Below, piece after piece: positions 11,835-64,000 of a DNA stretch of 64,000 nucleotides (position 1 is its first letter; each line of letters starts with the position of its first letter). Position numbers and translations under genes: made by a program. The notes beneath the pieces are model-generated. The model had not been told where the DNA came from. It did not search any database and saw nothing but the letters and a program-made list of their open reading frames with translations. Source of the stretch: Thiorhodovibrio frisius (lineage in GTDB: Bacteria; Pseudomonadota; Gammaproteobacteria; Chromatiales; Chromatiaceae); the NCBI RefSeq assembly GCF_033954835.1, contig NZ_CP121471.1, positions 3,776,501 through 3,840,500 of the forward strand, read 5' to 3'.

Positions 11835-12011
11835 TAGACCTATCGCAAACTGATGGTTTTCGGTTATGGGTCTGGTGACGGCCACGGGGTCTCGGCGGCC
11901 ATTGATTGGATCAGGGACGCCGCCGGGAAGCCTACAGGGAAGTATTCACGGCGTCCCCCGTGGCCGTCACCCGGCCCAGAACGAGCCGAAATCTCAAAGG
12001 GTTTCGGTGTA
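11835..12011 (+). repeat. F1 palindromic element, long copy (177 bp)
   Basis: Begins TAGACCTATCGCAAAC and ends AAAGGGTTTCGGTGTA. It contains complementary arms (GACGGCCACGGGG and CCCCGTGGCCGTC) around a central GGCGGCC...GGACGCCGCC hairpin whose loop is about 16 bp longer than in the 161-bp copies. It ends 30 bp before the prkA start codon, leaving the prkA ribosome-binding site intact. Confidence 0.85.
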
Positions 12012-19126: not shown

Positions 19127-19287
19127 CATACCCAGCGGACATGGACTTTCGGCTTATTTTGGGCCGGGCAGCGGTCACGGGGGACGCCGTGAACCCTTCC
19201 ATGGGGGCTTCCCGGCGGCATCCCTGCCGCCGAGACCCCCGTGACCGCTGCCCGACCCAAAACAGAAACGCATTTGCTACAGCTATA
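19127..19287 (-). repeat. F1 palindromic element, full 161-bp copy (reverse orientation)
   Basis: Aligns in reverse along its whole length with the copies at 59648 and 61907 and has the same length. Its end (CATTTGCTACAGCTATA) lies only 2 bp before the pncC start codon, so the pncC leader comes from the repeat. Confidence 0.85.
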
Positions 19288-26340: not shown

Positions 26341-27615
26341 ATGCAAGAAGTCGTTCTGATCGAGGTCACCGGGCGCGACCGCCCCGGCATTACCATGACC
26401 CTGACTCAAGCCCTGGCGCGCGACCAGGTGCGTATTCTCGACATTGGCCAGTCGGTTATTCACAACACCCTGGCGCTCGGCATCCTGGTCGAGTTGCCCA
26501 CCGACAGCGGCGGCTGTCAGGTATTTCGCGAACTGCTGTTCGCTGCCCATCGCCTGGGACTGGATGCGCGCTTCACCCCGATTGAATCCGACGCCTACGA
26601 AGACTGGGTGCGCGAGCAGGGCCAGCCGCGTCACATCCTGACCCTGCTTGGCGCCGTGATCAATGCCGAGCACATCGCCCAAGTCGCTGCCGTGGTCAGC
26701 CGTCACGGGCTCAATATCGATCAAATTACCCGTCTATCGGGGCGCATTTCCCAGCGCCCGGAAGCTGCGCACCATAGCCAAGCCGCACCCGGAACCCGCC
26801 CCGCCTGCGTGGAGCTTTGGCTGCGCGGTCCAGTGCCGGACATCTCCGCCCTGCATGCCAGCTTTCTGCAACTCGGCAGCCAACTTGATGTCGACATTGC
26901 CATTCAGGAAGACGACATCTTCCGCCGCAACCGCCGGCTGGTGTGCTTCGACATGGACTCTACCCTGATCCAGACCGAAGTCATCGACGAGCTGGCCACC
27001 GCTGCCGGAGTTGGCCAACAGGTTGCCGCCATCACTGAACGAGCCATGCGCGGGGAGTTGGATTTCGGCGCCAGCTTTCGCGAACGCGTCGCCCTGCTTA
27101 AGGGACTGGAAGAATCCGTGCTGGCCGGAATCGCTGCGCGTCTGCCGATCACCCCAGGTGCGGAGCGGCTGATCCAGAGTTTAAAAGCGCTTGGCTATCG
27201 CATCGCCATCCTCTCCGGCGGCTTTACCTATTTCGCCGAGCATCTCAAGCAGCGCCTCGGCATCGACATCGTCCATGCCAACCCGCTTGATAGTAAGGAC
27301 GGCCGCCTGACCGGCGAAGTCACCGCCCCCATCGTCGATGGCGCGCGCAAAGCGCAACTCCTGCGCGAGATAGCAACGCAGGAAGGCATCCGCTTGGAGC
27401 AAGTCATCGCCGTCGGCGACGGCGCCAACGACCTACCCATGCTCGCCATCGCCGGCCTCGGCATCGCCTTTCATGCCAAACCGCTCGTCAAGGAACAGGC
27501 CAGACACTCGCTGGCCGCCGTTGGGCTTGATGGCATTCTCTACCTGCTCGGCATGCGCGACCGGGATCTAGAACACCTGAGCGTGAAACAGCAGCTTTCT
27601 GCCGAGACCCTTTGA
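26341..27615 (+). CDS. serB: Phosphoserine phosphatase SerB
   Basis: 424 residues. It removes phosphate from phosphoserine in serine synthesis. I start at ATG 26341 (MQEVVLIEVTGRDRPG) because the ACT domain begins there; the frame extends 18 codons further without similarity. Two ACT-like domains (about 1-200) precede a HAD phosphatase with CFDMDSTLIQTE, ILSGGFTYFAE and GDGANDLPMLAIAGLGIAF. The stop codon and last few residues (AETL) coincide with the right end of a short F1 repeat, so the repeat appears to have defined the C-terminus. Confidence 0.95.
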   Translation: MQEVVLIEVTGRDRPGITMTLTQALARDQVRILDIGQSVIHNTLALGILVELPTDSGGCQVFRELLFAAHRLGLDARFTPIESDAYEDWVREQGQPRHILTLLGAVINAEHIAQVAAVVSRHGLNIDQITRLSGRISQRPEAAHHSQAAPGTRPACVELWLRGPVPDISALHASFLQLGSQLDVDIAIQEDDIFRRNRRLVCFDMDSTLIQTEVIDELATAAGVGQQVAAITERAMRGELDFGASFRERVALLKGLEESVLAGIAARLPITPGAERLIQSLKALGYRIAILSGGFTYFAEHLKQRLGIDIVHANPLDSKDGRLTGEVTAPIVDGARKAQLLREIATQEGIRLEQVIAVGDGANDLPMLAIAGLGIAFHAKPLVKEQARHSLAAVGLDGILYLLGMRDRDLEHLSVKQQLSAETL

Positions 27616-27655
27616 GATTTCGGCCCAAAACCGAAAGTCAGCTTGCGATTGGTAC
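27598..27655 (-). repeat. F1 short form (58 bp, reverse), overlapping the serB stop
   Basis: Reverse reading gives TACCAATCGCAAGCTGACTT, then TCGGTTTTGGGCCGAAATC and TCAAAGGG. Both outer ends of the F1 element are kept and the centre is missing, with the junction TTTTGGG/CCGAAATC. The same junction is seen at 42605-42661. Confidence 0.8.
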
Positions 27656-27729
27656 ATCCTCCGCAAAGCCCAGGACCATGGACCTTAGCCGCTAGAGTCG
27701 AACACCACCCAAGGTCGCCACCCGGCAGA

Positions 27730-32300: not shown

Positions 32301-32368
32301 GCGCTGCCATCCTCAACAGAAAAGAATGTCGCAGGATAAGCGCGAGCGGCAAAGCTTGGCAAACTGGC

Positions 32369-32421
32369 ATGCCAATCGCAAACTGGTTTTCAGAAAACAG
32401 AAAACGCATTTGCTACAGGGA
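32369..32421. repeat. F1 outer ends in inverted arrangement
   Basis: GCCAATCGCAAACTGGTTTTC is followed directly by AGAAAACGCATTTGCTACAG. These resemble the left end of F1 and its own reverse complement as seen at 19287. It may be a collapsed element with two left arms. Confidence 0.5.
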
Positions 32422-42604: not shown

Positions 42605-42661
42605 TATACCAATCGCAAATGATTTTCGGGTTTGGGCCGAAATCTGAAAGGGTTTCGGTAT
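42605..42661 (+). repeat. F1 short form (57 bp)
   Basis: TATACCAATCGCAAATGATT then TTCGGGTTTGGGCCGAAATC and TGAAAGGGTTTCGGTAT. The ends match the full element and the centre is deleted at the same place as in the copy at 27598-27655. Confidence 0.85.
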
Positions 42662-42666
42662 GGCAG

Positions 42667-44463: not shown

Positions 44464-44559
44464 GAGCAGTTTCCTCTCTGCGGATAATTCTTCTTGAGCG
44501 AAGGTTGCCGCGCACAGCCGATCCGCGACCGGTCAAGCCAGCCACCCTCTGAATAAGGT

Positions 44560-44606
44560 TCATAGTCCCGGCCACCCCGGAGAATGAATCTGCTGTTTCA
44601 GAGTAA
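44560..44606 (+). repeat. F2 repeat copy supplying the ubiA 3' end
   Basis: CATAGTCCCGGCCACCCCGG then AGAATGAATCTGCTGTTTCA and GAGTAA. Read on the minus strand it encodes the last ten residues of UbiA ([10 protein letters not shown]) and its stop codon. Confidence 0.8.
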
Positions 44607-48283: not shown

Positions 48284-48400
48284 GATACCCTAAGATGCTG
48301 GGTGACACTAACCATGATGTATTCACGGTGTCCCCAGTTGCCACCCACCTTGCCGTCACCCGGCCCAGAACGAGCCGACATCTCAAGGAGTTTCGGTATA
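48284..48400 (+). repeat. F1 element with internal deletion of the left half
   Basis: The right half from TATTCACGGTGTCCCC through GCCGTCACCCGGCCCAGAAC to AGTTTCGGTATA is clear. The left end (GATACCCTAAG) is only loosely like F1. Confidence 0.65.
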
Positions 48401-53079: not shown

Positions 53080-53092
53080 GCTGGATAACCTT

Positions 53093-53139
53093 CATGGTCC
53101 CGACCACCCAGGGTAATGAATCTGAGTGATTCACAGTAA
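53093..53139 (+). repeat. F2 repeat copy between convergent xseA and aminotransferase genes
   Basis: CATGGTCCCGACCACCCAGG then GTAATGAATCTGAGTGATTC and ACAGTAA. The hairpin GAATC-TGAGT-GATTC is perfect here. Confidence 0.85.
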
Positions 53140-54599: not shown

Positions 54600-54618
54600 A
54601 AGGTTTGCGATTGGTATA
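54600..54618 (-). repeat. F1 end fragment
   Basis: AAGGTTTGCGATTGGTATA is the reverse of the F1 left end. It directly abuts an F2 copy starting at 54619. Confidence 0.7.
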
Positions 54619-54662
54619 GCGTGAATCACATGGATTCATTCTCTGGGGTGGCCGGGACCATG
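54619..54662 (-). repeat. F2 repeat copy (reverse)
   Basis: GCGTGAATCACATGGATTC then ATTCTCTGGGGTGGCCGGG and ACCATGA. The hairpin GAATC-ACATG-GATTC is perfect. Confidence 0.85.
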
Positions 54663-54733
54663 AGCGTCAGGCGGTCCATGTAAGGGTGCAAACAGGACTG
54701 TTGTCCCGCCCAAAAAAGGATGCTAGGTTTTCG

Positions 54734-59647: not shown

Positions 59648-59808
59648 TATACCAATCGCAAACGGGTTTTCGGTTTTGGGTCGGGCGGCGGCCACGGGGG
59701 TCTCGGCGGCAGGACGCCGCCGGGAAGCCTCCATGGATGGATTTACGGCGCCCCCCGTGGCCGTCACCCGGCCCAGAACGAGCCGAAATCTCAAAGGGTT
59801 TCGGCATA
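59648..59808 (+). repeat. F1 palindromic element, full 161-bp copy
   Basis: Begins TATACCAATCGCAAACGGG and ends CAAAGGGTTTCGGCATA. Arms GGCGGCCACGGGGG and CCCCCCGTGGCCGTC pair across a central GGCGGC-AGGAC-GCCGCC hairpin. This is a good reference copy. Confidence 0.9.
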
Positions 59809-61906: not shown

Positions 61907-62067
61907 TATACGAATCGCAAACGGGCTTTCTGTTTTGGGTCGGGTGACGACCACGGGGATCTCGGCGGCATGGATGCCGCCGGGACGCCTATAGGGATAT
62001 ATTCACGGCGCCCCAGTGACCGTCACCCGGCCCAGAACGACGCAAAACCTCAAAGGGTTTCGACATA
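61907..62067 (+). repeat. F1 palindromic element, full 161-bp copy
   Basis: Begins TATACGAATCGCAAACGGG and ends CAAAGGGTTTCGACATA. Same length and arm structure as at 59648, with scattered substitutions. Confidence 0.9.
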
Positions 62068-62118: not shown

Positions 62119-63339
62119 CTATTCCGAATCGCTCACTGAGGCGGCTATTCGGGGAGACGAAAATCGCGTACCCATAAGATAGCAACTGCCGCTCAGCAGG
62201 CCGCTCAGGCCCATGCCGACGAGTAACGGCGTCGCGCTGCCATCGTGCAGGAGGCTGATCAGCGAACCGCTGAGCGCCCCTGCACCGAAGCGGACCGCGC
62301 CGCCGAAGGCTGAGGCGGTGCCGGCCAGATCGGGAAAGTCAGCCATAAACCCGGCCATGGCATTGCCCATTACCAGCGCCGTCATGCCCAGATAGGCTCC
62401 CGTTAGGGGTGCGATCAGCCACAGGCTCGGGTTGGGTACCTGAGTCAGCACCAGCATCAAGAGCGCGGCGAGCGCCTGCACGCCAAGCCCGATCTGCAGC
62501 AGCCGCTCGGCACCAAAGCGCGGAATCAGTCGCGCGTTTAGCACGGACACCACCAACGCTGCTGCCACATTGGCTCCGAACAGCGGGCCGAAGACCTGCG
62601 GCGAGATGCCGTGGAGCTCGATGTAGACGTAGGGCGAGCCGACGACAAAGCCCATAAGTCCGGCAAAGCTCGCCGAGGCCGTGCCCAGATAGGCCAGCGC
62701 GCGGCGATGGCGCAGGATGCGCCCATATTGACGCAGCGGATCCGAGAACCTTAGCTGGCGCCGCGCCGGTAGCAGGGTTTCCGGCACCACACGCAAAAAC
62801 AGCAGTGCCGTGACCAGAGTGATACCTAGCAGGGTGGCAAACACCCAGCGCCAGGAACCGACCAACAGCACCAGACTGCCAAGGCTCGGAGCGATCAATG
62901 GTGCCAGCCCCATGACCAGCATCACCAGCGTCATCACCCGCGCATAATCGTCATGCGCAAAGCGATCACGCACCAATGCCGGGATGGTCACGGCAATGGC
63001 CGCGCCGCCGACTGCTTGTAAACTCCGGCTCACCAGCAGCCAGGTCATCGACGGGGCCAGCGCGCAGCCCAGGACGCCGAGGGCGAAAAGCGCTAGCCCG
63101 CCGCCGATCAGCGGTCGGCGCCCGCGCACATCCGACAAGGGCCCGAGCAGCAGCTGAGCGCTGGCGAAAAACCCCAGATACAGGGTGACGCTGAACTGCG
63201 CAAGCCAGATGTCGCTGCCCAGATCGCGCGCAAGCGTTGGCAAACTGGGCAGGTAGAGATCGATCGCGAAGGGCGTCAGGGCGGCCAGCGCCCCGAGGGT
63301 AATCAGCAGGCTAGGGTGTAGGTGTGCGCGGCGAATCAG
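62119..63339 (-). CDS. Bcr/CflA family drug-resistance MFS transporter
   Basis: About 406 residues, 12 hydrophobic helices. Family signature in TPFAIDLYLPSLPTLARDL, the loop GPLSDVRGRRPLIGGG between helices 2 and 3, and LQAVGGAAIAVTIPALVRDRF. It exports drugs or metabolites by proton antiport in the inner membrane. The start is unclear: no ATG or GTG is in a good place. AAGGAG lies 5 bases before a CTG at 63339 (then ATT CGC CGC), which I use; the open frame further upstream is an F2 repeat. Confidence 0.88.
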   Translation of the reverse strand: MIRRAHLHPSLLITLGALAALTPFAIDLYLPSLPTLARDLGSDIWLAQFSVTLYLGFFASAQLLLGPLSDVRGRRPLIGGGLALFALGVLGCALAPSMTWLLVSRSLQAVGGAAIAVTIPALVRDRFAHDDYARVMTLVMLVMGLAPLIAPSLGSLVLLVGSWRWVFATLLGITLVTALLFLRVVPETLLPARRQLRFSDPLRQYGRILRHRRALAYLGTASASFAGLMGFVVGSPYVYIELHGISPQVFGPLFGANVAAALVVSVLNARLIPRFGAERLLQIGLGVQALAALLMLVLTQVPNPSLWLIAPLTGAYLGMTALVMGNAMAGFMADFPDLAGTASAFGGAVRFGAGALSGSLISLLHDGSATPLLVGMGLSGLLSGSCYLMGTRFSSPRIAASVSDSE

Positions 63340-63350
63340 TCTGTCTCCTT

Positions 63351-63396
63351 TACCGTGAATCAACAGGCTTAATCTTCCGGGTTGGCCATGACCATG
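63351..63396 (-). repeat. F2 repeat copy (reverse), degenerate
   Basis: TACCGTGAATCAACAGGCTT then AATCTTCCGGGTTGGCCATG and ACCATGAG. The hairpin stem has decayed. Confidence 0.7.
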
Positions 63397-63517
63397 AGCG
63401 TTAGGGTGGACTTGGCGAGCGGCTTGGCGCTTCCCGCTCGACCAATGCCGCGAGGATACGCGGGATCGCAAGTGGTGGTGGGTTGCTTGGCCATCAGGCG
63501 GAATGTCCAGTCAAGCG
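63397..63517. other. Intergenic sequence upstream of uvrB
   Basis: Part of the 341-bp gap between the transporter and uvrB. Apart from the two flanking repeats I see no gene or motif. Confidence 0.3.
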
Positions 63518-63605
63518 TTCGCCGCGCCTCCATGGATGGATTCACAGCGCCCCGTGGCCGTCATCCGACCCAGAACGAGCCAAAATCGCAAAGGGTTTCG
63601 GTATA
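63518..63605 (+). repeat. F1 element, right half only (88 bp)
   Basis: From GCCTCCATGGATGGATTC through CCCCGTGGCCGTCATCCG to AAAGGGTTTCGGTATA. The left arm is missing, so the central hairpin is incomplete. It ends 75 bp before the uvrB start. Confidence 0.8.
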
Positions 63606-63680: not shown

Positions 63681-64000
63681 ATGACACAGACTAGAGCCTT
63701 CCAGCTCGAATGCGCCTTCCAGCCTGCCGGCGATCAACCAGCTGCGATTCGCGCGCTAGTTGAGGGGCTGACCGACGGCGAGGCCGGCATGACGCTGCTC
63801 GGCGTGACTGGCTCGGGCAAGACCTTCAGCATCGCCAATGTGATTGCCGAGCTGCAGCGCCCGGCTTTGATTCTGGCGCCCAACAAGACGCTCGCCGCTC
63901 AACTCTACGGGGAGATGAAGGACTTCTTCCCGCACAACGCGGTGGAATATTTCGTCTCTTACTACGACTACTATCAGCCGGAAGCCTATGTGCCGGCGAC
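63681..64000 (+). CDS. uvrB: Excinuclease ABC subunit B, 3' partial
   Basis: 106 codons before the window ends. Translation from ATG 63681 ([20 protein letters not shown]) matches the UvrB N-terminus: Walker [31 protein letters not shown] in parts, and the beta-hairpin entry [17 protein letters not shown]. UvrB is the damage-verifying helicase of nucleotide excision repair. A short overlapping ATG frame at 63629 is not UvrB. No LexA box is obvious upstream. Confidence 0.96.

Follow-up and report, generated by a model that had tools for sequence, protein, structure and literature searches.

A TA-ended, MITE-like repeat of Thiorhodovibrio frisius with a decaying form of a widespread hairpin module whose loops resemble CsrA sites

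The window analysed here is a stretch of 64,000 nucleotides and corresponds to positions 3776501-3840500 of the genome of T. frisius (G000), which consists of one contig of 5,417,120 bases. Scattered over it are full, partial and shortened copies of a palindromic repeat, which are given below together with the parts of a representative copy.

59648..59808, + strand: full element, representative copy, 161 bp
59648..59663, + strand: left end TATACCAATCGCAAAC of the representative copy, located by end-pattern search
59793..59808, + strand: right end of the representative copy, here AAAGGGTTTCGGCATA, a variant of AAAGGGTTTCGGTATA
59782..59805, + strand: right subterminal hairpin with a 10-bp stem
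59673..59700, + strand: long arm, 5' strand
59752..59779, + strand: long arm, 3' strand
59688..59765, + strand: core module, covariance-model match of 93.4 bits
59704..59722, + strand: core hairpin 1, with the 5-nt loop AGGAC at 59711-59715, the ANGGAN of the family being absent
59727..59749, + strand: core hairpin 2, GCC TCC-ATGGAT-GGA TTTAC GGC, loop at 59733-59738
61907..62067, + strand: full copy, 161 bp, two hexaloops retained, T-A closing hairpin 2
19127..19287, - strand: full copy, 161 bp, right end diverged, two ANGGAN loops retained
11835..12011, + strand: 177-bp copy of the long subclass, with hairpin-1 insertion
48311..48400, + strand: partial copy, right part
63468..63605, + strand: partial degenerate copy, strong right part and weak core match (21.8 bits)
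54603..54618, - strand: lone left end, exact
42605..42662, + strand: short form of 58 bp, ends joined without core
27598..27656, - strand: short form, ends joined without core
32368..32383, + strand: lone left end with 2 mismatches

A sequence-only reading of this DNA had already recognised the three 161-bp copies (59648-59808, 61907-62067 and, reversed, 19127-19287) and the 177-bp copy at 11835-12011, all of which have the sizes it gave. The partial copies it placed at 48284-48400 and 63518-63605 are real as well, the first in its right part with homology starting at about 48311 only, the second with an actual start further back, at about 63468-63480. Missed were the short forms at 42605-42662 (+) and 27598-27656 (-), the lone left end at 32368-32383 and, above all, a conserved structured core that is present far beyond the element. 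The copy at 19127..19287 (-) gives the best core match of the window (97.6 bits). Subterminal hairpins had been assigned to both ends; the right one is indeed a 10-bp stem, whereas the left one is weak.

The window also contains a second short repeat of about 55 bp, of the GGTTCATGGTCCCGGCCACCC..GAATGAATC type, at 53086-53139, 54617-54671, 63350-63405 and about 44554-44600, with about a dozen 73–93% matches in sister species. In addition, positions 62165-63351 and 63697-64000 are 93% and 97% identical to places in the sister genome G002, the other long G002 matches of the searched stretch of the window having 73–83% identity only, and this high-identity similarity breaks off at a distance of some 100 bp from a copy of the element.

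Used as a query against its own genome, the 161-bp repeat was matched by all 40 scored candidates (of 134), with E values from 2e-79 to 3e-37, which exceeds what chance would give. The TATACC..GGTATA ends likewise recur across the genome: at up to 2 mismatches the left-end pattern TATACCAATCGCAAAC was found at 69 sites and the right-end pattern AAAGGGTTTCGGTATA at 71 sites, the reversed-pattern control giving 1 site in either case. A profile run over the fetched loci of this genome yielded 71 distinct repeat traces; 49 of them score above 90 bits, and the 48 of these that span more than 120 profile positions are referred to as near-full copies. When 30 copies were aligned, their flanks proved to be unrelated and the similarity ended at TATACC and GGTATA, which form a terminal inverted repeat that is perfect over only about 6 bp. 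Pairing of left with right ends resulted in 43 elements, 16 of 159–161 bp, 18 of 166–187 bp and 9 of 44–84 bp, and left 26 left and 28 right ends unpaired. Exactly 161 bp, the length originally ascribed to the family, is therefore its commonest size but applies to only 11 of the 43 end-paired elements, which fall into three size classes. Most of the long class is explained by inserted sequence within hairpin 1 (CCTTGATCGGATCAGGGAY or a variant of it), present in 17 of the 48 near-full copies, and the short forms are internally deleted copies with a reduced or absent core. Long and short forms have also been described for Correia elements (PMC2229807). The pairing further gave five inward-facing pairs of like ends, 2.3–5.5 kb apart. 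According to a crude purpose-made gene caller, 48 of the 49 copies overlap no gene. The neighbours diverge at 20 of the 49 copies and converge at 4; tandem contexts comprise 9 copies in sense and 14 in antisense orientation, and 2 copies are left unclassified.

The centre of the element had been taken for a single hairpin. Instead, the inner ~80 nt constitute a covarying three-way-junction module with two hairpins. A first alignment comprised 16 sequences of the inner part, taken from seven genomes; in it 15 of 24 pairs had changed on both sides, and covariation amounted to 0.523 compared with 0.162 in shuffles. The covariance model R1 was built from this alignment; on 92 matches (90 distinct), 97.1% of the cells are paired and double changes occur in 21 of 23 pairs. 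AGCC/GGC, a helix inside hairpin 2 that lies outside the model, is paired in 97.0% and doubly changed in 2 of its 3 pairs, and with this helix included the four helices are again paired in 97.1% of cells and show 23 of 26 pairs doubly changed and a covariation of 0.718 against 0.164 when shuffled. The 92-match alignment was fitted to the model and hence favours the modelled helices, but no shuffled or slid version comes near it, sliding of the partners lowering the pairing to 34–50% of cells. The matches were drawn from 90 loci after removal of L134, L135, L144, L154, L164 and L046 as same or near-identical places, and L001-L031 were excluded, own-type copies being counted separately. Conservation is not confined to the loops but extends to the junction, the AGCC/GGC helix and a TTYAC bulge.

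The search of related genomes that had been suggested covered 55 genomes (own included) and located the whole element in the sister species G001 and G002. Four further genera of the family match in the inner part alone, and the sequence outside it differs from that of the element. On this evidence the core predates the element. In the class as a whole, R1 matches were obtained in 66 of 369 genomes (own included) and 59 of 272 genera, with up to 12 candidates scored per genome and at least 12 present in 20 of the 66 positive genomes; the model already contains ANGGA loops and therefore favours matches that have them. A scan of the genome collection with a pattern for hairpin 2 only returned at least 120 stretches, of which the 80 listed come from 28 assemblies. 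A 66-nt core consensus found no match when compared with plasmids, phages and E. coli.

In one genome (G281), 9 of 10 inspected copies of the core belong to one longer element with its own ends; this larger element (L134-L143) ends near TAAGGAACGAGCATGAAATAACTT and AAGTTATTTTGTGCATATTCCTTA. Among ten copies each from G341 and G122 no two arms are alike at 70% identity, and in G271 2 of 45 copy pairs share an arm, yet the arms in all three genomes are well self-paired. The loci L144-L163 of G341 and G122 thus present a conserved head on a well-paired arm specific to each copy. In an orthologue pair from Ectothiorhodospira (L215/L246) the arm carries three substitutions per side which compensate each other, whereas other orthologue pairs have uncompensated arm changes too; the compensating changes could reflect either selection for pairing or palindrome-correcting mutation. 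At L037, L119, L125, L167 and L168 two oppositely oriented cores are separated by about 165–1370 bp.

The YPAL/RU-2 repeat of Yersinia resembles the present element in being an intergenic, MITE-like palindrome, of 167/168 bp, and its sequence as printed in PMC2759123 has the core of our element at its centre, namely an AAGGAT-loop hairpin followed by GAGCC-TAC-ATGGAT-GTA-TTTAC-GGC. However, the YPAL termini are described in PMC2229807 as being without TA, with target duplications of 3–26 bp near dyad symmetry, whereas the element of T. frisius ends in TATACC..GGTATA, and it is therefore not YPAL despite the common core. With an E value of 2e-5, R1 also matches a YPAL-like element in E. coli. 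Of 5426 genomes of this species 5 contain one, which is chromosomal in one case and plasmid-borne in four. At the two E. coli loci read (L329, L330) it has IS remnants and a gene for alcohol dehydrogenase next to it.

An Rfam search of the window gave no gathering-level match. The nearest Rfam family is the TwoAYGGAY RNA (RF01731), which like the core combines a common stem with two hairpins whose loops read A-N-GGA-N, but in which hairpin 2 has a long unbulged stem while that of the core is short and bulged. Its model had no match at E<=10 in G000, G001, G002 and G006 (54 candidates scored per genome, in G000 out of 206) and one weak match in G022. A TwoAYGGAY-type RNA is multi-copy in G042, a member of the same class (see also L055 and L063), with 27 matches, one of them above the Rfam cut-off. 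Related loci gave weak matches to models of Ysr224 and of miRNAs, which were put down to chance or to the palindromes. By form, the element can be likened to ERIC, Correia/NEMIS and RUP, which are small palindromic intergenic repeats with TA ends; RUP has an IS630 partner, whereas none was found for the present element. To the eye, hairpin 2 bears some resemblance to the ERIC primer. The CsrB/RsmZ-type sRNAs are encoded at one or few loci, whereas the copies of the present element are dispersed and have a fixed junction fold. As in the core, GGA motifs are found in the hairpin loops of these sRNAs (PMC4383904).

The loops of the core deserve separate consideration. Binding sites of the CsrA/RsmA proteins have been summarised as a SELEX consensus RUACARGGAUGU for CsrA and a hexaloop ANGGAN for RsmE, bridged sites being 10–63 nt apart (PMC7652899), and hairpin 2 (CUACAGGGAUGUA) is a close fit. 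A pattern of two GGA loops fits 86 of the 92 R1 matches with 19–21 nt between the GGAs. The pattern itself makes every loop 2 an ANGGAN; loop 1 has 6 nt and reads ANGGAN in 72 of the 86, and it is 7 nt long in 9 (the G281 type) and 5 nt long in 5. Because R1 was built with ANGGA loops, a fairer test searched for hairpin 2 only. Hairpin 1, which lies outside that search pattern, reads C-ANGGAN-G in 107 of 113 places from the at least 120 stretches (9 edge matches left out) and, among the 80 listed stretches, in 73 of 77 (4 left out), with 13 stem variants. In the genome of T. frisius itself the hexaloop is kept by 6 of the 48 near-full copies in hairpin 1, by 33 in hairpin 2 and by 5 in both, 10 copies that were unparsed in hairpin 2 being scored as not kept.

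The dispersed and intergenic location, the fixed ends, the unrelated flanks and the internally deleted forms agree with what had been proposed at the outset and suggest a non-autonomous, MITE-like element. Its mobility is inferred from the structure of the copies; no transposase or empty site was found, the flanks of the window copies being too diverged to align with G001 and G002 in the part of the window compared, and those of a G122 stretch likewise too diverged for an empty-site comparison with the relatives of G122. The proposed link to an IS630/Tc1 transposase, by which the repeat would be a MITE of such an element with duplication of a TA target, would account for the TA at either end and has a parallel in RUP, a TA-ended bacterial MITE tied to IS630-Spn1 (PMC2229807). 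This link is not supported, and we regard it as quite improbable: the corresponding DDE_3 domain has no match in the own genome; in the sister species, with 4 partial matches in G001 and 16 matches in G002, the ends of the four G002 copies that were compared differ, being CTAGTACC-like; and the search for an IS with the ends of the element failed, as neither end of the element (at most 3 mismatches) nor a core match occurs in 20 fetched transposase loci and the own genome has no left-right end pair 190–6000 bp apart, that is, none of IS size. Unlikely, too, is the idea that an HUH (Y1) or similar recombinase acts on the head as single-stranded DNA, with loops, bulge and junction as the DNA footprint of a protein. 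It would explain why conservation of the head extends past the loops and includes the bulge, and Y1_Tnp domains do occur throughout the genus, its three species having 13, 23 and, in G002, 2 matches. G002, however, is rich in elements with just these 2 matches, a DNA substrate would not predict the excess of G-U described below, and the core (E<=1) has no match in 10 fetched Y1_Tnp loci of the 38 matches, for which reason a Y1/RAYT partner was rejected. In G000, 11 of the 13 Y1_Tnp matches lie within the first 350 kb (G000:C1:104041-342444). Finally, the representative copy folds very stably (-100 kcal/mol), as ordinary intrinsic terminators or chance palindromes might, but this interpretation is contradicted by the ends common to 71 traces, by the covariation of the core across genera and by the lack, as judged by eye, of a T-run right after the arm in the inspected copies, making it highly implausible.

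Another possibility, which we put forward tentatively on the basis of sequence and predicted fold, is that the head is a working CsrA/RsmA-binding RNA, serving as dispersed decoys or in the control of neighbouring transcripts, in other genera and less so here. The C-ANGGAN-G hairpins match the RsmE hexaloop and the SELEX consensus (PMC7652899), and CsrA binding has been proposed for TwoAYGGAY RNAs in PMC4333381. A csrA gene was found in 61 of 66 core-positive genomes, an overlap tallied by eye from two genome lists, and G000 has 2 csrA matches; however, csrA is nearly as common in core-negative genomes (252 of 303; Fisher p 0.06), and no csrA match was obtained in 5 core-positive genomes, among them one that is 98% complete. 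On the ANGGAN strand G-U exceeds A-C by 111 to 48 over 101 places and by 59 to 37 in arms outside the model, the places being not independent in either case; the arm count comprised 69 of the 92 model matches, own genus and all but one of the own family dropped, and 71 named places, without duplicates and arms under 10 bp. In the own copies the G-U excess, 41:20 over cells, all but disappears over distinct pair types (19:15). Changes private to one own copy comprise 6 G-U and 11 A-C and thus no G-U excess, suggesting that single own copies decay freely. Compensation in the arms of the Ectothiorhodospira pair would be in line with a functional RNA, the uncompensated changes in other orthologue pairs would not. 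Neither would the retention of both loops in so few of the own copies, the conservation of junction, TTYAC bulge and AGCC/GGC helix beyond the needs of CsrA binding, or the lack of a sense bias towards neighbouring genes, the pooled tandem contexts being 18 sense and 36 antisense (p 0.02). For the wider family these contexts were taken from the 80 listed of at least 120 loci, with 53 of 81 matches classified, some of them orthologous places of sister species, and those at edges (18), overlapping a called gene (9) or without a gene (1) left out. Our literature search found no paper joining YPAL-like repeats with CsrA; for other repeats, of the TAACTGA type, CsrA was weighed and considered unlikely in PMC4679880.

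The best reading of these sequences is that of a TA-ended MITE, distinct from YPAL, which carries a degenerating copy of a widespread hairpin module resembling CsrA sites. Taken as a whole, the repeat is probably best explained as a non-autonomous, MITE-like element with a class-wide head that is decaying in this genome. The TATACC...GGTATA ends would presumably have been moved in trans by a transposase since lost or unrecognised. Between them lies a long palindromic arm that is capped by the conserved three-way-junction head. In many gammaproteobacterial genera this head sits on repeats whose ends are different or whose arms are specific to a locus, YPAL being one of these repeats. With its pair of C-ANGGAN-G loops spaced by about 20 nt, the head is shaped like a CsrA/RsmA target with two sites, which suggests that it most likely began as a protein-binding module at the RNA level. 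In T. frisius, most copies have lost the hexaloop of hairpin 1 and look like decaying insertions, so that the element is here probably for the most part a parasite of the genome rather than a functioning regulator.

YPAL-like hairpin repeats have already been described as MITEs; what is new is that a common core with covariation extends over 59 of the 272 genera in the sample, which would give these repeats one anatomy. More speculatively, YPAL and the present element might belong to a class-wide superfamily of mobile hairpins whose head binds CsrA/RsmA at two sites, so that the parasites would dock on, titrate or be silenced by the regulator and seed new Csr-controlled sites. Should the head not bind CsrA/RsmA, its conservation would point to another recombinase or RNA-binding protein; if it does, regulator-binding sites would travel on mobile repeats.
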